Below, piece after piece: positions 2,061-44,800 of a stretch of DNA of 64,000 nucleotides. Position numbers and translations under genes: made by a program. The notes under the pieces are model-generated. The model did no database searches, was not told where the DNA came from, and worked only from the letters and a program-made list of their open reading frames with translations. Each line of letters begins with the position of its first letter. The stretch's first letter is position 1. Source of the stretch: Aquilaria yunnanensis (lineage: Eukaryota > Streptophyta > Magnoliopsida > Malvales > Thymelaeaceae); contig CM077594.1 of assembly GCA_039654915.1 (NCBI GenBank), forward strand, positions 111,676,893 through 111,740,892, in the 5' to 3' direction.

Positions 2061-2065
2061 AAAAG

Positions 2066-2090
2066 CGAGGGAGGGAGGGAGAGAGACAGC
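2066..2090 (+). promoter_or_regulatory. GA-rich 5' leader of the GT14 gene
   Basis: A purine run of GAGGGAGGGAGGGAGAGAGA type sits 15-40 bases before the ATG at 2105. A TATA-like tatataat lies near 2024. GA-rich leaders are common GAGA-factor (BPC) targets in plants. Assigning this run to the 5' UTR is an inference from its position. Confidence 0.4.
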
Positions 2091-2104
2091 GAGCCTCAAT
2101 TTCC

Positions 2105-3337
2105 ATGGCGGCCGGTGCTACTGCTACTGGATCCAAATCCATGATCAGTCTCAACCCTCTCCTCATCCTCAATCTGAATCGTCTCCTCACTCATCTTCTC
2201 TCCTTCTTCATGGGCGTCTCCCTCTCCCTTCTCTTCTATCTCAAAACCTGCCCCTTCGACTTTCTGTTTCAGCCTCAGGCCGTCCAGCTCCTCAGCTCCG
2301 CTCCACCACCTTCACATCCCCCACTGCTATTTCCACCACCCCCATCCCTGCTCCCACTCCCACTCCCCCTCGCTGATGACAGACCATATTTGAGGACGAT
2401 GCACAACCTCACCGACCAGGAATTGCTGCGCATGGTATCGCTATCATCATCATCATCAGTAATTAATTATCATGATACAGCCGGCGCCGCAAAAATACTG
2501 AAGACTCGGCCAAAAGTAGCGTTTCTGTTCCTTACGGCTGGGCAGCTTCCCCTCTCGTTGCTCTGGGAGATCTTCTTCCGGGGACACCAAGGCCTCTGCT
2601 CCATCTACGTCCACCCCCATCCCGACTACAACGACACCACCACCCCACCCTCCTCCGTCTTCTATGGCAGACGCATTCCTTCCCAGCCCGTCTCTTGGGG
2701 CACCATCTCTGTGGTGGACGCCGAGAGGCGACTCCTCGCCAACGCCATTCTCGACTCCTCCAATCAGAGATTCGTCCTCCTCTCCGAGTCCTGCATTCCC
2801 CTCTTCAACTTCACCACCGTCTACCACTACCTCATCCACTCCAAGCACACCTTCCTCAGCCTCTACGACCTACCTTCAAAGGCGGGCCGCGGCCGCTACA
2901 ACTCCCAGATGTCGCCCCTCATCAACATCACCCAGTGGCGCAAGGGCTCCCAGTGGTTCGAGCTCAACCGCGAGCTGGCCCTCCAGGTTGTTTCGGATCG
3001 CAAGTACTACTCGGTGTTCAAGGAGAGGTGCGTGCCGCCGTGCTACAATGATGAGCACTATATCCCGACGCTGGTGAACATGTACATGCTGGCGGAGGGG
3101 GACGGGGAGAAGAGCGGGAACCGGAGCGTGACGTGGGTGAATTGGTCCAGGGGAGGGCCTCACCCCAAGAAGTATGGCGTCCGCGACATTACCCCGGAAT
3201 TCTTGAATTGGATCCGCTTCTCCTCCCAATGCCTTTACAACGGCAACACCACCAACCTCTGCTTCTTATTCGCCAGAAAGTTTGGCTATAATGCTTTGCG
3301 CCCTTTACTGCGCCACGCCCCACTCCTCTTCGGCTGA
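2105..3337 (+). CDS. GT14 / DUF266 (BC10-like) glycosyltransferase, core-2/I-branching type
   Basis: A single-exon gene encodes 410 aa. It belongs to the plant core-2/I-branching beta-1,6-N-acetylglucosaminyltransferase-like family (GT14, DUF266, BC10-like). Members are Golgi type II membrane proteins linked to cell-wall and arabinogalactan glycosylation; the acceptor of this one is unknown. Visible: a short cytosolic N-terminus, a hydrophobic anchor at about residues 27-46, a proline-rich stem at about 66-89, a serine run at 113-118, and a catalytic domain from about 137 (KVAFLFLTAGQLPL). Family hallmarks follow: SWGTISVVDAERRLL, FVLLSESCIPLFN, the SQWFELNRELA region, CYNDEHYIPT and VNWSRGGPHP. 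Several N-glycosylation sequons are present (NLT, NIT, NRS, NTT). The start sits in a strong plant context (CCATGG), and the length fits the family. The coding region is far GC-richer than its surroundings. No break was seen. Confidence 0.93.
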   Translation: MAAGATATGSKSMISLNPLLILNLNRLLTHLLSFFMGVSLSLLFYLKTCPFDFLFQPQAVQLLSSAPPPSHPPLLFPPPPSLLPLPLPLADDRPYLRTMHNLTDQELLRMVSLSSSSSVINYHDTAGAAKILKTRPKVAFLFLTAGQLPLSLLWEIFFRGHQGLCSIYVHPHPDYNDTTTPPSSVFYGRRIPSQPVSWGTISVVDAERRLLANAILDSSNQRFVLLSESCIPLFNFTTVYHYLIHSKHTFLSLYDLPSKAGRGRYNSQMSPLINITQWRKGSQWFELNRELALQVVSDRKYYSVFKERCVPPCYNDEHYIPTLVNMYMLAEGDGEKSGNRSVTWVNWSRGGPHPKKYGVRDITPEFLNWIRFSSQCLYNGNTTNLCFLFARKFGYNALRPLLRHAPLLFG

Positions 3338-3339
3338 AT

Positions 3340-6300
3340 ACGAATATATACATTCCCTTCTCTTATGATCATCATTAACAAGCGCTAGTGTTAACGACGA
3401 CCTTAAGTCCATTCAATTATATATATGTTTTATACTCTTTAGCTGGCTGGCTAGCTATCTGTAATTCCCCGTACTACTGCACTGAACTTAAAAGGAATCG
3501 CGATCGATAAATCCAATGTCCATATAACGATCCATGTCAGCAATCGTTGTGACCAACTCATCTTATAATTTGAGCTGTATGTCTACAAACAAGTCAATGG
3601 CTCAACTTGATTAATTAAAAGCCGCTCTATCACTCTATAAATTTTTTTTTAAATCTTCCTCATCATCTCACTTCTTTATCTCCTCATTCCTTTTTACCGC
3701 CTCCCTCACACCCAATCACTCACGATGAGCCGCAACATTCTCCTTTTCAAGGAATTTTCAAATCCTTTTGGTAAATTCAGCCACTATCTTTCTTCACTGA
3801 ACACATCCAGGTCCACTCGCTTCTCGGATCAACTAGATGAACTTCTCATCGCTCCGATGCAAATCAATAGCAATCTCGCTTATCTGTTCTTTGCATCTTG
3901 GTCGCCGTCGTCCCACGACTCTATTCCTCTATTTAATCTATTCCTCCATCCTATGATCGATATTAATAATGTTTTTGCTTTAGGCACTATGGCCAATTAA
4001 TTTTCACATAATTTTCACAGGATTGATGGATCCCAAGGGCCAGGATTCGTATTGACTCTACAGAGTCAAAATTATCAATCAAATTAAGAATGATTAACAA
4101 TCTTAGAATGATTAATATAAATGAGATTAGCCACCGAAATAAATAATAATCATTGTTAACCACAGAAATAAATGGTAGTCAGTAGCATTCATTTGCCTTG
4201 TTTTCCATATTTTGTTCACCTGATGGTGGTCACACCTCCGCAACCAGACTTTTACCCAAATTACAATCATTTTTTTCAGCTGACTAAAAGTTATTTCACC
4301 ACCATTTAGCCATTAAATGTTTGGTCGCTATAACTAGCTTCAGTTGTAGTGGAAGCGAGAGAAGAAAGAATAATTTATAAAGCGAAATGGGGATGAAGTA
4401 AATATTTTATTAACAATCATATAACTTATATTTTAATAAGAGTGTGCTAGATATATAGTTATGTACATTTTTTATAGTGAAGTAAATATTTTCTTAATAA
4501 AGATATCACAAAATATTTAAGGGTATAAATGTAACTAATAATGTTACTAATTTTTCTTTCAGCTAATTTATCAAACATTAAAAATACATGACGCTAATAG
4601 CTAAGTGCTAATAGCTAAAGTTAAATTTTAATACTAACATAAAACCAAACTTTAACGCTACTTACAGAAACATCTGAGGCTATTAGCCACTGCTATTAAT
4701 ATTGAATCTAACATCAATTTACATTTCAACCACTCACCGATCTTTTTACTGGACCAAATAATTTATTCATCCCAAATTCTATTAGCGACTTTCCATATTG
4801 ATATGCCCAAATTGATGATATATATATTTTTTTAAAATAAAAAAGAAATAACTAGATTGCCAATTCCCAATTTCTCCTAAAAAGTTGATGTATCACTTGT
4901 AATAAACACTTTTTATGAGGATAAATATTGGGAATGAGTGTTGAAAATTTAACAGCCTCTAAAATTATGCAAAAAGAAAATATATCACAAAAGAATAGAG
5001 TATGAAAGAAATTCAAATGATAAAACAAGCAAAGATTCATTAAAAAAAAGGGAGAAATTAAATCAAGTATCCTTAAAAAAAATTATTAGATGGATGAATT
5101 TGGCATCTGTGTCGTTGCAAGTGGTGTAGATAGCCATTGGTGTTGGTGAGGAGGCAATCGACAAGCGCAGACAAGCGGGAGAGGGTCCTATTTAGGGTGA
5201 GTTGTAGAAGAAAAAGAAGATTTTTTTTTTTTAGGATCGTATGATGAAGAAGTAGTGTATTTGGATGTAATTGTAAGAGAGCATTGGGAGGTTAGAGATG
5301 GTAGATTTCCATTTGGGACAATGGCAGAGGTGGATTAGGTTTAGAGAGACGGTTGTGGAGATATTTCCATACAAAAATGGAGGATTCACAACATTCTTTT
5401 GGCAAAACCCACTCTCTTAAGTGGTTTTCATCCTTTTTATCTAGGAAGTGGCTTTTGTATGTCGAATCTTTCATGCACCTTACCCCTATAATTACTCTTT
5501 TGTTCTCAATCCAATTTTGTAATTCCCCCCATATCCTTACCTCCCAACCACAACACTATCACGTTGATCGAGTAATCCCTTACATTAGTACCATCAACTA
5601 CCCCCTCCATTGCCACTATCCCACATCAGCTTGTGCCATTGTTTCTAGGCATTACCAACCACCAACAACAGTGATCATTGGTTGGGTTAGGCGAGCAATA
5701 GTAAGATTGATATGAGAAACCATCAACTCACCTTCTTCTAGACGCAGCGAAATTGGGAGAAGATATTAGGGTGATGGCATCTGGTTGATAACAACGGTGT
5801 CTAAAGTTTTGCAATTCATTACAATGGTTTGTGGTAGGTGATGAAGAATTGAAGTGACGATGGTGAGAGGAAATATGAACAATCAAATCCATTTTTTAGG
5901 GGGGGGGGGGGGGAGGATTATGTAAACTACCTCAATACTATCTAAAACTTGCAATACTACTATGGGATTCAGAAAGCTATTTTTTCTCCTCTACATTGGA
6001 TATTCAAATCGTATTTATATAAGATTTCTTATCTTTATAGTAATAAGTGAACAAAGGTAACATATCTGCAATATCTTTTTAACATATCTTTGATCTCATT
6101 TATGCATATGCAATATTATTTTGTACATATTCATCACTTGCTTTATACTTTAAGTTTTATACTTTAAGTTTTATACATATTTATCATTCAATTTGTACAT
6201 ATCTTTAATTTAAAGTGAAGTGGGATTTGACAAATTCACACATATTTTTTATGAGATGTTAAACTTATACATACTATTGGATATATTGATAACATATTTG

Positions 6301-14702: not shown

Positions 14703-17700
14703 ATGCTTGCCGCTTCATCCGTCACGCATCATCTTCCCATCTCCTCTAAATCCTCTTCCTCCAACACAAGTCCAAATGTCCCCAGATCAAAGCGACCCCC
14801 GCAATTTCCTCACTCAAAAGGCGCCAATTCTCCTGCTTCTCAGCCCCCTCTTCAGATCCCCACTCCTCCATGGATGACCCGACCTCTTCTTCTGCAACCT
14901 CACCAACTCCCGGACCCGTTGAAGCCCACCCACAAGAATAGGCCCAGAAATCCCCAAGTCCTGACATCTGACATGGCCTTGTTCGGTAAGGAGAGTGGCG
15001 TTCGGGGTAACAAGGCCATGAAGAAGATCATTCTAAACCTCGAGAAGCTTCCACAATCCCAAGTTTTTGACAGCTCCCCTGCCGCTGATTTGGAGGCGGT
15101 TGATTGGTTAGATCATTTCGGTGGTGGGCATTCTGGAGAGGTGGAATTTGGCGGGAAATTGCCATGGTCGAGGGAGGAAGGTAGGGTTATCTTTAGGAGG
15201 GCGAAAAAAGACAAGGCGGTGACAGCGGCCCAAATGACGCTTGACAAACATCTGCTGGCAAGACTCAGAGGTGAGGCTGCCAGGATGAGAAATTGGGTCA
15301 AGGTGAAGAAAGCCGGTGTCATTCCGGCCGTGGTTGATGAGATTAGGTTGGTTTGGAGGCAGAACGAGTTAGCCATGGTCAAATTTGATGTTCCCTTGTG
15401 TCGGAATATGGACAGAGCCAGAGAAATTTTGGAGGTTAGTTCTGTTTCCACAAGTTTTACGTAATCGCTTATGCTGTGTAGCTGCGGCTTCGGACTAATC
15501 GTGAGAAAACTCTGCAAGTTAAGTCTGCCAATTCCTTAAAATCAGGGACTGCCTTTTGGTCTTTGAAATTTAGTCTGTCTCGTCCAGAATCGCTGTTTCA
15601 TTCCGCCAAATCCTGTTGCAGATAAGAATAGCGCCTTTTCTGGTTCAAGTTCTCTTTTGCTGTGTCCCTTTTTTCCCCAATTATTCTTCCCGTTCCCAGG
15701 AAACGAATGAAACTGCTCTAGACTAGTTTCTGGTCCGACGTCGCTTTATATTTCTTTCCTGGTCTGTAGCTTTTCCGAAGAGCAATTTGTTTGAATCTAA
15801 GTTCTTCAGGGTTTCTAACCATTATGTTCATCTTGTTCTAGTTGAAGACCGGAGGTTTGGTTGTCTGGAGTAAGAAAGATGTTCATGTTATATACAGAGG
15901 ATCTAGTTTCCAGTCCACTCCAAATTCTCTTATGCCAGGATCTCTCTTCTCTCAGGCTGGTCAAGTAAAATCTCCCCCAAGTCTGAGTGATCCTACTGCT
16001 AGAGAAGATTTTAGTTATTGTCAATTGCCTCCTAACCAAAGCTCTGAAGGTGGAAGTTCAGATAGAAAGGAAGGAGGACATGAACCTTTGCCAACCAGAG
16101 CTCACATGAAAGATGAAACTCACTCACTCTACAGGAGAGAAATGGATAGATTACTGCAAGGTTTAGGGCCTCGATATATTGATTGGTGGATGCAGAAGCC
16201 ACTCCCGGTTGATGCTGACTTGCTGCCAGAAGTGGTTCCTGGATTTAGGCCTCCGGTGAGGCGTGGCCCACCCAATACCAGAGTAAAATTGACCAATGAT
16301 GAGTTGACATACTTGAGGAAGCTAGCACATCCTTTGCCCTTTCATTTTGTCATTGGTAATATCTTTTTTAACTGAGAATCTATCTACAGGAATTCTGCCT
16401 TCCATGCATATCAAACACCCATGCTGCTTGTGTGAGAACCCATATACGTAAATTATTTTTCTAAGAAAAGAGGATGATGATAGCTAGAAACTACTTGTCA
16501 GTGATAAAACTGGAATATGCATGGTTGTAGCATAGTTGCTGAGGATATTGTATGCTTTTCCTCGGTTTCTGTCGTGTTAAATTCATATTGATACATCTCA
16601 GTTCTTGAGTTTACCTGTTATTAATCTAGGTCGAAACAGGAAACTTCAGGGATTGGCTGCTGCTATTCTGAAATTATGGGAGAAATGTCTCATAGCAAAA
16701 ATTGCTATAAAGTGGGGAATTCCAAATACCAACAATGCACAAATGGCACTTGAGCTCAAGGCAAGTTGGTACTCTCTTAAACTGTTAAGATGTACACATT
16801 CCAGGCTGGAATCCTTTTTACTCCTAGCCTAAGTCGATCCACAGTGTGTGGAGCTGCAATTGCCATGGTATTGTTATAGCATTTGTAAAATAAAAGCTCA
16901 AGCCTCAAGGCTTGCTGGGTCGAGGGTTTCTTTTGGAATTGGTGTTTTGAGTTACTTTATTGAAACATGTGGCTATATTGGTCTGCATGGATACCATATT
17001 TATGCTTGCCTTTTCTATCATTTGTCCTATTTAACAGTGCCTCACAGGGGGAGTTCTCTTGCTAAGAAATAAGTTCCTCATTATACTGTATAGAGGGAAG
17101 GACTTCCTTTCAGGTGGTGTAGCTTTTTTGGTGGCAGAAAGAGAGAACGAGCTCAAGAGATGTGAACTTGTTGAAGAAGGTGCAAGGCTGAAAGTTGCTG
17201 AAACATTTCATTTAGCCGATGAACCATCAATGGAGACCAGATCTGCTGGAACTTTATCAGAATTTCGGAGCATCCAGGTCAAATTTGGTGATCTGGCAAC
17301 TAGAATCAGGGATTCTGAACTTCAACTGGAAGCCAAGAAAGAAAAGTTAAAATGGGAACTAAGAAACCAAGGACGCAAGCTGGCAATTGTAACATTCATA
17401 TCCTCTATTTTTACTTCTTTGCCTCTCTTATATTTTTCAATCACACACCTCACTTTTCTGATGCGGAGAAACCTTAAAATTGGCTCATTGATTGCTCCTT
17501 TTTTGAACCCACACCCCCCCCCCCCCCCCCCCCCTTTTTCCTTCTCACTCAAGCGGTATACTTTAAATGATAGCTAGAGCTGGCATTTGGGAAGTCGAAA
17601 TAAAATAAAATCCCATGCTTCTGACTATTAACGTACTCATGTTGGTTCATGCAGCTAGATATTAAGATTGAGAAGTCAGCTAAAGAATTAGCAAAACTGG

Positions 17701-20549: not shown

Positions 20550-23500
20550 CTACCGCCAGGAAGTGTTGGACTCTTGATATATGGCTTCATAATTCCAAGA
20601 CTGGTGATGTTGGGATTGAGTACCATACTCTGCAGCAAGCATTTTAGCTTTTCTAACTGCTTCAACATAGTAGTATAATCTCCAAAGCGTTACATTATCC
20701 TGAAAAGCATTCCCTTCTTAATATATCAAAATCCACGCCTCAAAAATTGCGTCTGCTTTAATTCATCATCAACTTTACCTGTTGTTCCAAGTCGATGAAA
20801 ATTTCATCGCAACCTAGCTTTTCTGCTGGCATGTTACGTTGTATTATTTCAGCTACTCGCACGAGACCTTCATCAGGGAGCCTCTGAATCAACTTAACAA
20901 GGTGCTGCTTCTCTGAGCATGTCATCTGCCTGCAGAACAAAAAATGGATTAGCTTCAAGACAAATATGGAGCTAGAAAAAGCACTATTGTTCTCCTGGTG
21001 CTTATCCACTTTGAGGATCTATATTTTGGTGGAAGCAAATTTACAGAGTAATCAGCTGTATCAAGGAAAACAAAACATCAATGCTTTCGAATACATACCT
21101 GCACGTGGGCATTACTGTATCAAGGACTTTGCTCAGCCTCCTTTCCATATGCACAAGCTGAAAACAATGTATTATAATCCAGTTCAGTTAGAAATCATCT
21201 GTAGCAAACGATCCATTCTTGCTTCTTGGTCATCATCGGTACAGATGTTTATATACAACAAAGGACATTTCACAAAACAAAACTTTGGAAAATCACCTTT
21301 TTGGATAGCTCATTTGAATATTTGTCGACAGCCTCCTCAACAAGAATGCTATCATTTTCCAGAAGGAATTGCAGATCATCATTCACCTGGATAGCGCAAA
21401 TATTACATTTCACTCATCAGGATATTCAGTATCAAACAAATAAATGCACCAACACACATAAAAGTTCTATCATTTGCCTATTACAAGTGCAGTGACAGTT
21501 TTCATTCGTGTGTAGATTCTCTACAAAATAACAAGGATTGCCACGGAGAGAGGGTGCCAAATCTCTATTTTCCCCCACCAAAGAACAGGAAATGATGACA
21601 AAAATTTTAGGATGTTGCGGCTGATAATCTTCAACTAATTGTCTCCTGGACCTGTTCTAGATTAACTCATGGGCATTATTTTCCTCCAAACCGGTTAGGA
21701 GGGAACTACTTCCTCAATGTGGCACCCAACCACAGAAGTAGATGAAAAATTAAACTTAGTTAAAAATTAAAAAAAAATGCAAATTTTTAATTTAAGTGGC
21801 TCAGGTTCTGTCTCACATGCAATGTAGGAGGAGTTTCCTTCTACCCAGGTTGGAGGAAAATATATTCCGAACTAAAAACTGTAAGAAACTCCATCGGAGC
21901 AATCACCTAAGGCAAGAATAATTCTGATATGTGTGAACATACGAATTGGGCTTCATAATGATCCATTGACATTTCCTAGTGAAACAAGAGAAAAAGGAAG
22001 AAGATTTTTTGGGGCCTGTGTTGGGAAGGGGCTCCACCTGGCTGAATATGTTAGAAAAGCTCAAAATATAAATGTTAGATTAATTTCTAGAAGAACAATG
22101 TACTGCTAACCTTGGGGCATGATCCTGTAGTGATGGAACTAGATGCTCCAAATTTGCTTCTGAGTCGACAACGTAATTGATGCAGTGCTAAAACAGGATT
22201 TAAAACCTGCACTGGTCCCAATCATATTGTTTAGCCCTTCATGGATTTTCAAGAATATAACAAGTGATAACTAGTCTGGCTAAAATGCAAATTCAGAAAG
22301 AGAAAAAACCAACAACCAAGGCAGAGAAAAGAATCGATCAGGACTCAAGATGCAAGTCCTAGGATGCGTAGAAGTGCACAAGCCACTAGCAAAAATAAAA
22401 ATAAGAAAAAGAACAAGACAGAAAAGAAAATAAAAGATACAAGTCTCCTGTAAGAAAAGAGATCAAAGCCCTAAAGTAAATGCATGTATATTACTATAAA
22501 TTATCAGATGAAAACAAAATTTTGTGTTATATTCAATGCAATGACGTCAAATCTGTGTGTCTCGCAGGAAAAGCCACCGGAAAGTCACTGGTCACTGGCC
22601 AAGGGGTAGCCGGAGGGCAACAGGGGGTAGTGGTGGGTGGCGGTCCACCCACAAGGCAGCACGAGGGACAACCCACCCGCACTAGCATTGGGGAGCACAA
22701 ATGGGGCATGTTCAGGCCCATGGAGGGCGACCGGAGGCTTTCTAGGGCTATGCCAAGATAAGATCTTAGCACATTATGAGTATTTGTGTCTCGCCAGAAA
22801 AGTTGCTTGTTGCTGCCAGGGGGCCATCGGAGGGACAGCGGGGGGTGATGGTGGGTGGCGGTCCACCCGCAAGGCAATACAAGGGACAACCCACCTGCAC
22901 TAGCATTAGGAAGCCTACCAGGGCACGGTGCCTGGAAGGCCCAGGGGGATCAGGGCTAGCACCTTCCCCCTAAAGAGATATATTTACTTTTATGGGTTAC
23001 CTAGCAAGAAACATAAAAAATTTGCGATGGTACCCCATTCATAAAATCTTATACAGGTTGTGTTTTGACACAATTTTTTGCAGAAATGCAAAGAATATTA
23101 TGAACTACCAAACTGCAAAATTTCAAGAGTTTTTTTATGAGCCAATTAATTAATATGATTTTTTATTTATTTTTAGGGTAAAAAATCATAATAATTCGAA
23201 AATAAATCCAAATGGTTTGAAACTTTGTCCAGGCCCTCATAAATCATTTAGAAATGATTGGCATCAAAACATTGCAAAGGGCACGGGGAAAATCAAGAGA
23301 TTTGTGAGAGCCATGGCGGAGAGTGCTGCTGCCGCGTGCCCTCACCGTGCCCCAATGTGCCCTCACCATGCCCCCAGCATGCCCTCATAATGCCCCCAGC
23401 ATGCCCTACCGTGCCCTCACTGTGCCCCAGCGTGCCCTCACCGTGCCCCTGTATGCCCTAGCTTGCTCTCACTGTGCCCTCAGCGTCCCCTCAGTGTGCC

Positions 23501-26500
23501 CCAATATGCCCCCAGCGTGCCCTCATGTGCCCTCACCGTGCCCCAGCATGCCCTCACCGTGCCCCCAGCATGCGCCACCGTGCCCTCACCGTACCCCCTC
23601 ATGCTTCCAGTGTGTCCTCACCGTGCCCCAGCATACCTGCAAACTGCAGCTATCTAAACATGATCAGGTTAACAAAGACAGCTCGTCCTTTATTATTTGT
23701 CCCATATAGACAGGAGAAAATGTCACTTCAAAATAGGGATAAGCATATGAGAACCAAAACAACAAGCATGAGACAAAGAAGGGCTTTTTGTTAATGATTA
23801 ATCTTTCCTGATAAAGATTATTGATCCATCTTTTAGGGAAGTGGAACATTCCAAGTGCATCATGATCCAAAAAGAGCTGAATGGCTATGGAATGAAGGAT
23901 TCTTTTTGTACTAACTTACAAGATAAAAAAAAAAAAAATTTGTTTAAAAATGCCATTTCCTCAAACACTTCTTACCTTGATAGACAATCAGCCATGACAA
24001 TATTACCTGGTTGAACTACATTATCTGGAACGAGTGTAAGTCTCTTTCTAAACACCCAGATTGCTTGAGTCCACTTGCACGAGGCATTTCAATATATGAA
24101 TACATCACCACGATTATTGAGAACTTGTTTAAACAATTACAATGTCAGATGGTTTTCAGCAGGCAAAAACATTACAGTGGGACTTATTAGGGACAGTATA
24201 TCCCTAGAAGAAAATTTAATTGCAATGGAGCCCTCTATCTATGAATACCAACTAAAGCAAAAAATGGATACCACTTGTAATCAACTCAAGAAGATTAGAT
24301 CACAAACAAACACTTGATAGGTATCAAAATTCTCAGTCCATGATACGTGTGTGCTCTCCTACACCATTCATTTGCAAGAGAAAATGAAAGAATTTGTACC
24401 TCATCAACTTCCGTCGCAAGATCTCTTACACTCTCCCTAAGTAGCAACTTCAGCCTTTCTTTTCTGAAATCCGACAGCCAGGCTCCCATGCTGCTACCAG
24501 CAAAGAGATCAGACCCATCACAACTGCCACCAATTGTCTTCTCTGTAAAACAAGTGACCTGTCCTTGGTATAACCTGGAGGCATTACAACAAGGCAAAAT
24601 ATCTTCTTTCTGTGACAACAAATCTGCTACTGCACAGGCATAATATCTGAAGTAGTCCGGGCCAACTCTATCCTGTGCAACTGATGTGCCTATTTCTAGG
24701 GCGTCTGGGGCAACAGAAACAGCACGGAACTGCAAACATTTCAGTATCTTAGCAGCAGATATAACAACCAAGGAAGATCACAACAATACACTGAGTTACT
24801 AACTAATTATTGTGATGTACTTTGTATTCAAATCTCCTTCCAAGGATAGAGTGGATGGAAATTGCATAGCAAATTGACATTAATGTTATCTGACAGAAAA
24901 TGGAAAAGAGTTCTTTGAATAAAACTTCATTTTGCTTTTGACACACAATATGCAGATTACAACTCTTGTGCATGCATGTCTCAAGAAAGCCATTTGAACA
25001 GTGCAGGAAGTCATTCTGAACAGGGGAAATCTAGGCAAGGATGATTGTAGAAATGCTGGTAATATAAGGCACGTAAAGTGTATTGTCCCCAGATGTTGTT
25101 GGCAGCTGTGGAAGGCTGTTCTGGAAGTAATCTGGTTCAGTTCTTGCCTTTTCACATGACGAATTTACATCTTTCAGAGGTTCTGGAGAAGCAGAAATAT
25201 TACCACACTGCATACAAGAACAGTATCTTAGCAGCAGAAATAACCACAAATAAAGAAGTCTATATTAGATACGTCAATCAATTGTCAGGAACATGTTTGT
25301 GTTTAGGTATCTTTTTTTTTTTAAGCATACCATGAACAGAATAAAGAGTAGACATTGTGAAACAGTTCTAAAAAAAATGGAAATTCCCTCCCCTCGCTGC
25401 TGAAACACAACATGCAGAATGAATGCCATTGTGTTCGAGCATTTCAATTTCCAAGAAAGTCATTTCAAACACCATCACATTAGGGAATAATTATTCTATA
25501 AAGAATGTGTTCAATACAAAGGTTCTCAACTCAAAATTCTACTAAAATGGGATTCATGGAAGTAATTTTTCCCAACTTTTAGGCAGGAAAAGAGATCGCC
25601 TGGCATGACGCCCCATCTTTTTTTTTCTTTTGATAGTTACACCAAGCCAGATTAAAAATTTTTTGAAGGAAATATATCACTTTTGAGAAGTAAGATTGCT
25701 GGAGAATTATTTTGCTAAATAAACCAAACACGAGAATCTTTGGAATGCTATTGCCCAAACTTGTCAGAGAAGCAAAATCCCCCCAGCCAAACTCTATTTT
25801 TATATGAAGCAAGCAAGGCTTATTTTTCCCCAAAAAGTTCTAACCTTGAAAATTGAAACATGTAGAACGAGAAAGTACATGATTGGTACCTCTCTCGGCC
25901 TTTTGGGTAGGCGCTCCAAATGAGAGTCGTTTTCTAAATGAGTGCTAGCGCCTACGGTTCCATCTGACCCCTGTAGACACAGACGACCGAATGGTCAGAA
26001 TACAGCAAATGATCCATTTAGCGTTAGCAAAACACTCTGCTACATGTACTCCCTTTACGTCACAAGGACAAAGTGGTGCTGACAACACATATAAGTTGCC
26101 AGAGAAGGGAGGTTGAGAATAGAACCCTGGCCGTAACTACATCAGTTGGTAACATAACGACTCCTGGTGATTGTGGACAAATTTTACTATCAAACGCGAA
26201 TTCACTCCCAAGGTAAAGAACAGCCCGGTTTCGCAATCCTACCTATCATAAATAGGGAACCCCTTCTCCTATTACATGGATTCAGACTCAGAAAGAGAGA
26301 AACTTACGAGGGGGAAGTTCGTGAAGGCATTGGGTCCATGGAGGCGAAGAGAGGCGAGGTCATAAGCGACGGCGGCGTCGTAGGCGGTGGTAAAAGAGCC
26401 AAGATGGAAGCGTCTGGAGCCCAGTCTGAGCTCGGCGTGCCACTTTCCCCAAGGCCTCTGTCGCACGCCTTTGTACTTCTTCTTCGGTCCGTGATCGGCC

Positions 26501-26658
26501 GCCGCTTGGGTGGAACCTACTATGGCTTGGCGCACAAATTTCTTGGGTTTGCCGAGCGGGCCGCGAAGGATGTCGGGCTCGTCATCGCTGGAGGAGTCGG
26601 TGGCGTCCGCATCGGCAACTGATATCCGTACAAGTCTCCGCCACGAGGGTGTGGTCAT
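20550..26658 (-). CDS. CRF-type AP2/ERF domain protein with C-terminal NET domain (reconstructed)
   Basis: Nine exons, in transcript order: 26658-26308, 25970-25890, 25207-25073, 24729-24400, 22206-22111, 21386-21297, 21157-21099, 20929-20779 and 20699-20550. Together they give 480 aa plus TAG. Residues 8-46 match the CRF motif ([18 protein letters not shown], then KKFV). Residues 62-116 form an AP2/ERF domain ([17 protein letters not shown]..). A middle region carries LPKRPRE, a possible nuclear signal, and two PDYF modules. Helical segments ([39 protein letters not shown]) lead to a NET domain at about 383-443: [19 protein letters not shown], a [12 protein letters not shown] stretch and [15 protein letters not shown] domains are the extra-terminal modules of BET bromodomain/GTE regulators, but no bromodomain is present. 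All junction phases agree. The weakest is the exon 3 donor (TAC/GTGCCT). Two adjacent genes remain possible but are disfavoured: exon 1 has a strong GTAAGT donor and exons 2-9 have no start of their own. Confidence 0.75.
20779..20929 (-). other. NET-domain core exon of the AP2-NET gene
   Basis: This 151-base exon begins with one base completing Arg381. It encodes the first two helices of the NET fold ([20 protein letters not shown], then AEIIQRN) and the acidic strand [12 protein letters not shown]. Donor CAG/GTAAAG. The next exon (20699-20550) supplies TLWRLYYYV, the conserved closing motif of NET domains, then a basic tail and the stop. Confidence 0.87.
22558..22975. repeat. GC-rich tandem duplication of about 225 bp inside the long intron
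   Basis: Two diverged direct copies (about 22558-22755 and 22785-22975) share ggtgggtggcggtccaccc, the following caaggca block and the cactagcatt block. They lie in the 2.2-kb intron between the exons at 24400 and 22206 of the AP2-NET gene. Open frames on both strands here are side effects of GC composition. Confidence 0.75.
23336..23635. repeat. C-rich minisatellite, about 21-bp period
   Basis: About 15 imperfect units built from TGCCCTCACCG and TGCCCCCAGCA half-units of 10-11 bases follow one another, in the same long intron. The strand asymmetry (C-rich on +, G-rich on the gene's sense strand) is marked. All three + frames stay open for about 100 codons simply because the repeats lack A-rich stops. 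Confidence 0.88.
24720..25500. repeat. Tandem duplication of an exon with its flanking intron (about 478-bp period)
   Basis: Sequence around the exon-4 acceptor (24720-24770) reappears at the exon-3 acceptor (25200-25250), including the run reading ctgctgctaagatactg on the - strand. The upstream intron portion is duplicated as well: cacacaatatgcaga near 24942 and acacaacatgcagaatg near 25408, each followed by a caagaaag(c/t)cattt block. The encoded parts align as ..SxSPEPL..PDYF and ..[12 protein letters not shown]. Confidence 0.75.
26308..26658 (-). other. First exon: CRF motif plus atypical AP2/ERF domain
   Basis: This exon encodes residues 1-117. The ATG at 26658-26656 is chosen because the CRF motif follows directly; the frame is open slightly upstream but has no ATG there. 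The AP2 domain keeps [12 protein letters not shown] and the C-terminal helix ([18 protein letters not shown], then NAFTNFP). Between these it is about two residues shorter than usual, and reads SRRFHLGSF where family members normally have a Trp before LG. The exon ends with a strong GTAAGT donor. Confidence 0.85.
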
Positions 26659-26744
26659 ACTGAAATTTGGCACTACGTCCTAAATCGTCATCTTACCGGT
26701 CAGGCTCCGGCGGAGAGCAATGCATTTCCTTGTCTACAACTAAT

Positions 26745-26756
26745 TTATATACCGCA
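26745..26756 (-). promoter_or_regulatory. Putative TATA box of the AP2-NET gene
   Basis: On the - strand the sequence reads GGTATATAAATT, about 90 bases upstream of the ATG at 26658. Position and sequence fit a plant TATA box. It has not been tested against transcript starts. Confidence 0.45.
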
Positions 26757-26964: not shown

Positions 26965-28660
26965 TGCATATCAAAGCAAGCAAGAGGGTTATGGTTTCCA
27001 TGATCTGCCAACTTTCAATAGGGCGGTGTTGGCAAAGCAATGTTGACACTTTATCCGTAATCCAACAAGCCTAGTATACCGGGTGTTCCGAAGGAAATAT
27101 TTACCTTTCACCTCGTTCTTGTGTGCTGCCCGGCCCTCAACCTTTTCAAATGTTTGGAAGGGCATGTTAGAAGGTCGGGAGGTCATTAAAGCTAGTGGGT
27201 TCTGGAGGATCGGCCAGGGTGTGGAGGTGTCTATATGGAATGATAATATTTTCCTTTCACCTCGTTCTTGTGTGATGCCCGACTCTCTACCTTTTCAAAT
27301 GTTTGGAAAGGCATCTTAGAAGGTCGGGAGGTCATTAAAGCTAGCGCGTTCTAGAGGATCGGTCAGGGTGTGGAGGTATCTATATGGAATGATAATTGGC
27401 TTCCAGGGCCTCATATAAAACCTGTGACATCTTTTCTTCCACATTTGTCTCATCTTTCAGCCGCTAACCTGATTAATCGGAGCACCTTTTCTTGGAAGGA
27501 AGGTGACATAGAAGCGCTTCTTCATCCCTCAAATGCAGCACTTATAAAGACATTCCTTTGAACCCCAGGTTTTTAGATGATCTCTTCACCTGGGGGATGA
27601 CCAATAATGGGCAGTTTTTAATCAAATCGGCATACTACCTTGCCTATGTTTTTCTTTATGGCCAAGACCCTCTTATTAAAACTGATTTTTGGAGATGGCT
27701 ATGGGGACTGAACCACCCTCATCGAGTACAAGTCTTCTTCTGGAGAGCGTGTGCTAATATTTTACTAACGAGAGATAACTTACAGACTTGAGGAATCCAG
27801 GTATCCCTTTCTTGCCATGTTTGTGACCAAGGAATTCAATCCAAACGTCATCTCTTCCTGGAGTGCCACTTTGCTTACTTAGTGTGAGATTTATGTGGTT
27901 TGAACATTCTACCCCTACCACATGATTGGGCTGAAGGCCTCCAAGGGTTCTTTCACAATGAGCCATTGAAATCCTTGAAGTTTGCGGTCACATGTTGGTT
28001 TCTTTGGCTCAATTGAAACAAGTTCGTCCATGAATCCTTTTGCCAAACTCCTGCCCAAATTTTACTCAGCGTTCATGCATGATTGGGCAACCGGTAGAGG
28101 GCAAATTCCAATCAAAAGACTCCAAAGATGTCAATGGCCAGAATGCCTATAAAATAAAGTTTGCTACCACAAGGGTTTACTAAAATTAATGTCGACGCAG
28201 CTTGGTGGAAGGAGGGATGACGTGCTGTCGCGGGTATGGCTGCATAAGACCAGTATGGCCATGTCCGCCTAGCCATCTCATATTGCTTTCCATACAACGG
28301 TTCTGACCCACTTTACTTTGAAATGCTAGCATTGTTGTGGGGATTGAAGGAGGCACATGGAATAAGATTCTTAGGTGTTGGTCTCTGAAATCCATAGCTC
28401 TCATTTTCCTTGTCTTTTCTACTTTGGAGCCATTGTTGATGAGGCTCGTACTCTTAAAGACATTTTTTTTAACTGCACATTCTCCTTTGTCAGTCGTTCA
28501 ATTAATGATGTTGCTCACTCTATCGCCTGAAAAGGGGTTAGAGTCCTTAGGCTGGTTGTCTTGGGGTGACCCTTTTCCCCCTTGGTTGTGTAATGCCTTT
28601 TTAAGTGATCAATATATTTGGCTTACGAGTCTTCCTTCAAAAATAAATAAATAAACATGG
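26965..28660 (+). mobile_element. 5'-truncated LINE (non-LTR retrotransposon), decayed
   Basis: Plus-strand frames give the RT C-terminal region (EGYGFHDLPTFNRAVLAKQC), then FWRIGQGVEVSIWNDNWLPG, then the zf-RVT region (FLIKSAYY, HRVQVFFWRACANILLTRDN; CHVCDQ near 27818 and a LFLECHF block). It ends in a plant LINE RNase H-like tail (GFTKINVDAAW near 28170; GLESLGWLSWGDPFPPWL near 28530). Stops and frameshifts are frequent. The 5' half, with endonuclease and RT core, is missing, as expected for truncated target-primed reverse transcription. The end carries an aataaataaataa tail at about 28637-28653. A 149-bp internal direct duplication lies at 27096-27396. Confidence 0.85.
27096..27396 (+). 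repeat. 149-bp direct tandem duplication inside the LINE
   Basis: The two units share ctttcacctcgttcttgtgt, the ccttttcaaatgtttgga block, a gaaggtcgggaggtcatta block and tatatggaatgataat, in the same order with an offset of 149 bases. They differ at several positions, so the duplication is old. Confidence 0.85.
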
Positions 28661-34544: not shown

Positions 34545-35241
34545 TTAGACAACCAAGCAATAAAAATTGAAATCCAGTTGGAAATTTTCATTTTTGTTAC
34601 TAGGATCTGCCATGCAAGTTCTTTTGTTATGCCCATATTGAAGGCAACAAGTACATTTTAGTGTGGTTGATCTCTTATTTAAAGCTGCCTCCTCCCTAAC
34701 TTTTCTTTTCCTTAATTTTCTTGGGCTACCAGCTAACCTTTTAACAAATAGAGGCTGAATTGCATATTCAGGTTTAGGGGGAGTGTAGTTAGTGGGTGGA
34801 ATGGGGTGGATAACCTTTTCATACACCTTTTTATACACATAAATAGTGTGGAATTCATCATAGAAGTCTTCAGGCTTCTTCCTCATGTGTGAGATGGGCT
34901 GAATTGCATGCTTGCATGGTATTCCACTCATCATCCATGCGTTGCAGGTACAAGTCCTCTCCACTATATCCATAACTTCTGTTTGTTGTTTACCACACAA
35001 AATCTGATATTCCCCCCTTTCCAGCAACAATCATTTTACATTTCCTCGAGGCTTGCACATTATTATCTAACATTTCCCTTGCTTTTGGAGTAAGTGTTCC
35101 ATCCCATGTGCACGAGGCAACATAATGTTTTTGGAATCTTGCCTTTTTCTTCATCCTTATACTTTCAAAAACTTAAAGAATGAGTTTACAGTACACCTTG
35201 CCCACCTAAGCATTAAAATGCTCTGTTATGTTGTTGGTCAT
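34545..35241 (-). pseudogene. MULE transposase, C-terminal part (SWIM and CCHC fingers)
   Basis: Reading the - strand, sequence directly after the solo LTR gives MTNNITEHFNA, the region following the MULE transposase core. It continues through KARFQKHYVASCTWDG into a frame at 35030-34545. There a SWIM finger (CTCNAWMMSGIPCKHAI; C-x-C..C-x-H) and a CCHC knuckle (CTCCLQYGHNKRTC) are intact. Stops near 35180-35215 show decay. This half is separated from the core at 36658-37280 by the solo LTR at 35242-36657. Confidence 0.87.
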
Positions 35242-41700: not shown

Positions 41701-41819
41701 GTGGTATTAAAGTGGCATTCTTTGCACGATGGCTGACGAAACTCATTCCCAGGATTGGCACAAAGCAGTCGAAGAGTTCATGGAAGGCTCAAAGGAGCAA
41801 TCAGAGCGAACGAACAAAG

Positions 41820-44800
41820 ACATCGCCATATTGGGGATGAACTGGCTTAATGCCAACCGAGTAGTCATAGACTGCCATGCCAGGCAAATTTGTCTGCCTA
41901 GATATAGGCCCCAATCTTTGGAAAGATCATCTGGGTTAGTCTTAGAAAATCACTTAAAGGTGATGGAACACAAACCCCTGATAATAAAAGGTGAATACTT
42001 AGGATTAAATGGAACTAAGGTAGAAATAGAGCTGGGCAACATACCCATAATCCAGGAATTTCCTGGAGTGTTCCCTGCAAATCTCCCAGGACTCCCTCCT
42101 ATAAAAGAAGTTGAGTTTGAAATCAGATTGGTTCCAGGAGCTGCACCAGTGTCCATTGCTCTTTACAGTATGGCTATTCCTGAAATGGTAGAGCTAAGAA
42201 AGCAATTGGATGAATTGCTTGAGAAGGGTTTTATTAGGCCAAGTACATCTCCTTGGGGAGCACCTGTACTTTTTATGAAGAAAAATGATAGAACCCTTAG
42301 GTTATGTATTGAATACAGAAAGCTCAATGCATTAACCATTAAGAATAAATACCCCTTCCTGAAGATTGAGGATCTATTCGATTAGTTAAAGAGAGTTAGA
42401 GTTTTCTCCAACATAGACCTCATATCTGGATATTTTCAGCTAAGAGTCAAAGAAGAAGATATACCAAAGACAGCTTTTAGGACCAAATATGGTCACCTTG
42501 AGTACACGGTAATGCCGTTTGAGCTCACTAATGCCCCAACCTTTTTCATGGACCTCATGCAAAGAATGTTCAAGGCTTATTTGGACGACTTTGTTATGGT
42601 ATTTATCAATGATATACTTGTGTACTTAAAGGATAAAGAAGCCCATAAGGAGTACCTAAAAGTAGTGTTAGGCTTGCTAAATGAGCATAGGCTATATGGC
42701 AAGCTAAGTAAGTGCCAATTTTGGGGCTAAGGAAATTGGATTTCTCAAGCATATGATCAATGAGCATGGTTTAGATGTTGATCCCAAGAAAATTAAGGCT
42801 GTCTTAGAATGGAAGCAACCTCAGACTATGAGGGACATAAAAAGCTTATGAGGACTTGTTGGTTACTACAGGAGATTTATGCCCAAATTTTCTATACTAG
42901 CAGCTCCGCTCACTCAATTAACAATAAAGGACCAAAAATTTGAGTGGAACGAGCAATGTGAGGCTAGTTTTTAAGAACTTAAGAAAAGATTGACTACAGC
43001 CCCAATACTGGTTCTACCAGATCCTACTAAGGAGCATGAAGTGTTTACTGATGCTTCTCGAGTAGGGCTAGGCTGTGTCTTAATACAAGGGAAACAAGCC
43101 ATAGCTTATGGATCAAGGCAATTATGGTATCATGAAAAGAATTATCCACTTCATGATCTGGAGTTAGCAGTAGTGATCTTTGCTCTTAAGTAGTGGAGAC
43201 ACTACCTGCTAAAAGGAAAATTTCAAGTCTTCACAAACCATAAGAGTCTGAAATACTTGTTCACACAGAAAGACTTGAACATGAGGCAGAGAAGATGGCT
43301 TGAGTACTTAAAAGATTTTGAGTGCGTCATTGAGTATACAGCTGGGAAAGCTAATGTAGTAGCTGATGCTCTCAATAGAAAGTACACGGGAGTACTTAAA
43401 GCCACTGGAGAACCTGCTGAGGTAGAGGTACTAAGTATAACTAAGTTAGCCCAAGAATGGGGACAGTGGGAAATGGACCAAGTGAAGGCCCTAACTATTA
43501 GGTCTGAGTAGAATGAACTAATTCAGGAAGCTCAGATTCAAGATAGAGAGATCCCTAGAATCTCTGGGTAGAAACAAGGGAAATTATATCAAGGATTTTA
43601 CTTTAAGGTTGTAATACTATATTTCCAAAATAGGATTTATGTGCCTAATAAGGATGGACTTAGGCAACAAATCCTAGAAGAAGCCCATTCCTGTTTGATG
43701 AGTATACATCATGGAGCTCAGAAAATGTATAAAGATTTGAGATCTCATTTCTGGTGGCCATATATGAAACAAGAGATTGGTGCTTATATAGCTAAGTGTA
43801 TGACTTGTCAACAAGTCAAAGTGGAGCACCAGAGACCTAGTGGTAAACTACAAGGCTTGTCTATACCAGAAAGAAAATGAGGATCTATATCCATGGATTT
43901 TGTAGTGGGTATGCTGCTAACCCGAAGAAAATATAATGTAATCTAGGTCATAGTGGATAGATTGACCAAGGCAGCCCACTTTTTGCCCATAAACCTTGCG
44001 GACTCACTAGAGAAGTTAGCCCAATTATATGTTAAGGAGATAGTAAGGTTGCATGGTGTACCTGATGACATTGTCTTTGATAGAGACCCAAGATTTGTGT
44101 CCAGATTCTGGAAGTCCTTGCACCATGCCTTGGGCACTAAGCTAAAGTTCAGTTTTGCATACCATCCTCAAATAGATGGGCAGATTGAAATGACCATTCA
44201 AACCTTGGAGGATTTGTTAAGATGTGGTGCCATAGACTTCTAAGGAAAATGGGATAGACATTTGCCTTTAGTGGAGTTTTTGTACAACAATAGCCATCAC
44301 TCAGTGATCTACATAGCACCATACGAGGCACTTTATGGAAGAAGGTGTATAACTCCATATTGTTAGCATGAGCCGGGAGATAAATTGGAAATAGACCCAG
44401 AGTTCATAAGAGAGACTACTGGGAAAATTAAGCTAATCCAAGAAAAGATTAAGGCTGTCAATAATAGGCAAGAATCATATGCCAACCTTAAGAAAAAAAG
44501 GGACTTGGAGTTCCAGGTAGGAGATCGAGTATGGTTGAAAGTATTTCCTATAAAAGGAGTAATGAGGTTTGGCAAGAGGGGAAATGTAGCCTACAAGTTA
44601 GAGCTACCCCTTGAGCTAAGACATGTACATGACACTTTTCATGTAAGCTTGTTGAAGAAGTGTGTCTCTGATCCTAAACAATTGGTACATGTCACTAGTG
44701 TTCCCATTACCCAAAATCTCACATATAAAGAAGAACCAATTTAGGTATTGGCAAGAGACACTAGGAAGCTTAGGAGTAAATGGATTCTTATGGTAAAAGT

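Follow-up and report, generated by a model that had tools for sequence, protein, structure and literature searches.

A predicted gene combining a CRF-derived AP2/ERF exon with a bromodomain-free NET half in Aquilaria yunnanensis

Gene model and surroundings

The window (the whole stretch of DNA analysed, 64,000 nucleotides, C2:111676893-111740892) belongs to the 842-Mb genome of Aquilaria yunnanensis, in which all relatives described below were sought. On its minus strand, from 26658 to 20550, nine exons can be read in compatible phases, and the joined frame is free of stops until the terminal codon (Table 1). The original prediction, in which nine such exons led from an AP2 to a NET domain, was thereby reproduced. 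The chain encoded by this AP2-NET gene model is 455 aa long, with alternatives of 435, 448, and 480 aa that are set by the choice of exon 3. Donor and acceptor scores were obtained with hand-made matrices typed from general knowledge, and the Pfam domain search was run on the 455-aa version.

Table 1. Features of the predicted AP2-NET gene, in window coordinates.
Feature	Coordinates	Strand	Description
TATA-like box	26743..26751	-	93 nt 5' of exon 1 ATG; TATAWAW from 26751 and 26749
Exon 1	26308..26658	-	ATG, CRF motif (residues 8-47), AP2/ERF domain (61-108), GTAAGT donor
Exon 2	25890..25970	-	27-aa linker including basic PKRPRE; acceptor rank 4/368, donor rank 32/658
Exon 3 (uncertain)	25148..25207	-	Diverged tandem copy of exon 4 start
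Exon 4	24400..24729	-	NET-family half begins; no Met in first 80 codons
Exon 5	22111..22206	-	From splice scan; homologous exon in C1 paralogue; within 3-kb interval that also contains a minisatellite
Exon 6	21297..21386	-	90 nt; length and phase equal in C1 paralogue
Exon 7	21099..21157	-	59 nt; length and phase equal in C1 paralogue
Exon 8	20779..20929	-	First part of NET domain, with DEIFIDLE; Pfam BET 67.5 bits, residues 357-419
Exon 9	20550..20699	-	End of NET domain, C-terminal tail, stop codon; matched in C1 paralogue
AATAAA	20473..20478	-	72 nt 3' of stop codon

Of the three frames of exon 4, one is open and the others contain 5 and 6 stops; the exon is homologous to that with which the model of a paralogue on C1 begins (see below). 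A homologue of the exon 2 linker was sought and none was found; stretches of the grade of exon 2 (by splice scores, 45–150 nt, open and in phase 0) number two in 128 kb of both strands, with exon 2 itself counted. An eight-exon model without exon 5 (423 aa) was superseded by the splice scan, and exon 5 was then confirmed by the C1 paralogue. Other in-phase stretches of intron 4 score at least as high as the chosen exon (23636-23595, which is the scan's best, 22969-22895, and others) and are without a counterpart in the paralogue; the first of these was rejected also for its position at the edge of the minisatellite. The minisatellite itself, at 23334-23634, consists of CGTGCCCTCAC-like units of 11, 21, 32, or 53 bases. 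At third codon positions, G+C amounts to 0.68 in exon 1 and to 0.15–0.58 in the other exons, a contrast that would suit a separately derived exon 1 but also a common 5' bias.

The weak point of the model is exon 3, which copies the start of exon 4 together with the preceding intron (DNA score of 95, where 200 shuffles reached 42 at most; protein score of 46 against the exon 4 start, equalled in none of 500 shuffles). An exon 3 with its end at 25073 gives exactly the 480 aa originally predicted, but the donor used there has the worst score of the options (-0.5 with the hand-made matrix). With the same matrices, an end at 25148 yields 455 aa through a GC donor scoring 4.6, and an end at 25169 yields 448 aa through a GT donor scoring 4.4, while skipping exon 3 leaves 435 aa. 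None of the four versions contains a stop, and each stays in frame. Exon 1 can also be spliced directly to exon 4 in frame (408 aa), and the join of AP2 to NET is therefore independent of exons 2 and 3.

Elsewhere in the window, a glycosyltransferase of the Core-2/I-branching type is encoded by an open frame at 2063-3334 (PF02485, 258.4 bits), and a stretch at 15842-16372 is similar to a CRM (CRS1_YhbY) domain protein, with 21.2 bits where the cut-off is 27. Pieces of mobile elements lie at 34548-35030 and 41711-44741, and comprise a SWIM zinc finger on the minus strand and a retroviral-type protease and a Tf2-1-like SH3 domain on the plus strand. At 27096-27788, a 149-base unit is present in two copies, with a weak plus-strand match to zf-RVT (25.0 bits, below the cut-off of 27.5). 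This remnant of a retroelement lies a few hundred bases 5' of exon 1 and might have a bearing on how the exon arrived.

The AP2 half

Both domains that the original prediction had placed on one chain, AP2 (PF00847) and NET (PF17035), exceed their Pfam cut-offs in the predicted 455-aa chain. The AP2 match scores 36.5 bits (cut-off 33.3) over the residues given in Table 1. Among solved structures, the exon 1 part matches AtERF1 (E = 2.8e-14). AlphaFold, run on the single sequence of exon 1, gives a model of low overall quality (mean pLDDT of 58); residues 61-100 of this model form three strands and a helix, with block means of 74–82, and its top Foldseek match is again AtERF1 (1gcc; E = 9.7e-05, rmsd of 6.6 over 61 columns).

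To place the exon among its relatives, we compared 50 of the 105 AP2 matches of the genome, the window's own included. The CRF motif that had been predicted on the AP2 exon recurs in four of the 49 other compared loci (L019, L021, L023, and L031). The N-terminus of exon 1 scores 80–94 against these four, values that none of 200 shuffles reached in each case, whereas the best of the remaining 45 compared loci scores 33, which was reached by 8 of 200 shuffles. On the basis of this motif, we regard exon 1 as CRF-derived. In a tree of the 50 domains, exon 1 stands beside the four CRFs on a long branch, with weak support (53/70, from 56 columns).

The AP2 domain of exon 1 is very divergent: its branch in the tree measures 1.88 changes per column vs a median of 0.077. 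Aligned with AtERF1, it is identical at 34 of 58 residues and three residues shorter between AE-R and the third strand. At the 12 positions that we take to be the DNA contacts of AtERF1, nine residues are kept, among them arginines 150, 152, 162, and 170, and the changes are R147K, W172H, and T175S. WLG is present in 48 of the 50 compared domains, the exceptions being exon 1 (HLG) and L049 (WIG). The text of Rashotte and Goertzen (PMC3095348) calls WLG "absolutely required" for DNA binding and gives the core of CRF-type AP2 domains as AAEIRD...WLGT. Exon 1 reads HAELRL...HLGS instead, and we therefore describe it as CRF-derived and do not class it as a typical CRF. DNA targeting by this domain is a prediction.

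The NET half and its paralogue

The C-terminal part of the chain matches BET/NET (PF17035) with 67.5 bits (cut-off 24.5) over positions 1-63 of the 64-position profile, and Pfam finds no bromodomain in the 455-aa chain at E up to 10, as the original prediction of a NET domain without a bromodomain had it. Against solved structures, the last part matches the BRD4 ET domain (E = 4.9e-05 with the whole chain). Where BRD4 has a DEIEID strand, the AP2-NET gene has DEIFID, so that partner preference may differ.

The genome contains ten NET matches, the window's included. Six of the nine others (L001-L006) encode a bromodomain and a NET domain in one open frame and are thus BET-type genes, and the NET parts of two more (L007 and L008) align poorly with that of the AP2-NET gene. 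The closest relative is the C1 paralogue (at about C1:18.75 Mb; 18.744), modelled with six exons that correspond to exons 4-9, with 42 per cent identity over 268 columns (E = 6.6e-60) and with all five junction phases equal (0, 0, 0, 2, 0). Its 255-aa model has a NET domain (54.0 bits) and no bromodomain, and starts from an ATG that lies within the first of the six exons, with in-frame stops just 5' of it; phase-0 AG sites near this ATG leave room for a further 5' exon. No AP2 match was found within 29 kb upstream, and none of the 105 listed AP2 matches of the genome lies within 3.5 Mb of it.

At the level of sequence, the paralogue independently confirms exons 4-9. Because it shares their phases and the NET domain, and has neither a bromodomain nor a nearby AP2, we assign the NET half to a NET-only family. 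It also follows that the CRF-AP2 exon was either joined to the NET half or lost from the paralogue, and that the fusion is not constant across the NET family. The original prediction had the AP2 domain replacing the bromodomain as the targeting module. A swap of this kind within a BET protein is contradicted by the closest relative, a bromodomain-free NET gene with the same exon structure, which is the kind of gene that AP2 appears to have joined; an origin from a BET gene by bromodomain loss was put aside for the same reason.

A decayed 232-nt copy, 87 per cent identical, of window positions 20621-20851 (the region of exons 8-9) lies on C3 (C3:24009001-24011000). On C1, upstream of the NET-only paralogue, a long tandem-like array occupies about 2700-5900 of locus L014, and its open-frame piece SFSPSYNDRTFPIVRGSKDLS is repeated in all three minus-strand frames.

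One gene or two

The sequence is best read as a single gene that encodes both a CRF-type AP2 and a NET domain, and we consider this reading probable. Exon 1 has a TATA-like box, an ATG, and a GTAAGT donor immediately 3' of the AP2 domain, and exon 4 lacks a start codon, which together favour one gene. Left unspliced, exon 1 would encode 128 aa only. In a pattern scan, the region from exon 1 to exon 4 held neither AATAAA nor ATTAAA, and the AATAAA behind exon 9 also speaks for one gene. The first 80 codons of exons 4-9 include no Met, although the model of the C1 paralogue begins in the matching exon. Other features count against one gene. AATAAA occurs inside intron 4 at 23694, 23171, and 23167, and a TATA-like site lies inside the gene at 25804 (another is at 21255). 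Upstream of exon 4, 13 phase-0 stretches from an ATG to a donor are listed, 11 of which do not start from the exon 1 ATG, and the longest between exons 1 and 4 encodes 33 aa.

The same features bear on a rather unlikely alternative, in which the locus holds two same-strand neighbours: a CRF-derived AP2-only gene of 128 aa that ends in intron 1, and a NET-only gene that is driven from a separate promoter (e.g. near 25804) and has an unrecognised first exon. The NET-only C1 paralogue, the TATA-like site at 25804, and the phase-0 stretches at 25429-25331 (33 aa, donor score of 7.1) and 25880-25845 (12 aa, donor score of 7.7) all speak for such an arrangement, but these alternative first exons are short. 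The lack of a Met in the first 80 codons of exons 4-9 argues against it. The donor directly behind the AP2 domain, the lack of AATAAA and ATTAAA between exons 1 and 4, and the rarity of stretches like exon 2 also argue against two genes. A decaying gene or (incipient) pseudogene, whose fused frame would be without function, seems most improbable: nine exons without a stop or frameshift and a NET score above that of the C1 paralogue (67.5 vs 54.0 bits) weigh more heavily, in our view, than the likeness of exon 3 to a decayed duplicate, the decayed copy of exons 8-9 on C3, and the long AP2 branch.

Within the single-gene reading, and counted apart as a share of it, stands the possibility that AP2 is a passenger: the CRF-AP2 exon would supply the promoter and N-terminus and would have lost DNA binding, and the NET half would do the work. 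We give this a substantial minority share. HLG in place of the WLG that is kept in 48 of 50 domains and described as indispensable in the text of PMC3095348, the branch of 1.88, and the three residues absent relative to AtERF1 point in this direction. The intact frame of exon 1 and a Pfam AP2 score still above cut-off point the other way. So does the retention of nine of the 12 presumed DNA contacts, with all four arginines.

Proposed origin and function

Under the preferred single-gene reading, a CRF-type AP2/ERF exon would have been joined upstream, in phase 0, to a bromodomain-free plant NET-family gene. If expressed as one transcript with all exons, the gene would yield a product of about 435–480 aa that would presumably enter the nucleus. 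Promoters would be chosen by DNA binding of the AP2 domain, or by CRF partners bound through the CRF motif, and the C-terminal NET domain would select chromatin proteins and bring them to these promoters, with no reading of acetylated histones. Passages of PMC5133849 describe how the BRD4 ET domain brings in effectors such as NSD3 and JMJD6, and the CRF domain is regarded in the text of PMC3095348 as a possible protein–protein interaction domain; on these grounds, the product likely acts in the nucleus, where it would guide NET partners to sites that AP2 or CRF partners select. More tentatively, we suggest that in a plant lineage the splicing of a CRF exon onto a NET-only protein may have created a self-contained, DNA-targeted chromatin recruiter without an acetyl-lysine reader, a natural fusion of a DNA-binding domain with an ET domain, whose AP2 domain may be evolving fast toward a new specificity.

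If transcribed as one message, the gene would tie a hormone-response-type transcription factor directly to an ET-type recruiter in one chain, and would offer a system in which to test whether NET domains of plants can function independently of bromodomains and acetylated histones. The NET-only paralogue without AP2 provides a built-in control in the same genome.

Comparison with known systems

No family in NCBIfam was matched, and a scan of viral contigs gave eight pattern matches and no relative. In the limited literature consulted, the combination of AP2 with NET was not met with. The words NET domain, bromodomain, and BET are absent from the main text of PMC3095348. A survey of bromodomain proteins in Arabidopsis and rice names ET as the most prominent extra domain (PMC10030601); AP2 is unmentioned in the main text of that survey, which selected for bromodomains.

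Like the CRFs (ERF groups VI and VI-L), the AP2-NET gene carries a CRF motif at its N-terminus, ahead of an AP2 domain, as in the four CRF-motif loci of the same genome, but it differs from them in its C-terminal NET half, its nine exons, HLG in place of WLG, and the strong divergence of its AP2 domain. With BET/GTE proteins it shares the NET/ET domain, whose closest match among solved structures is the ET domain of BRD4 (E = 4.9e-06 with a 96-aa piece), whereas the bromodomain carried by six of the nine other NET loci of the genome is missing from its chain. The C1 NET-only paralogue resembles it throughout exons 4-9, in junction phases and in the lack of a bromodomain, and differs in having its own ATG and no AP2 upstream. 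The AP2-NET gene is probably a new combination of component domains from known families.
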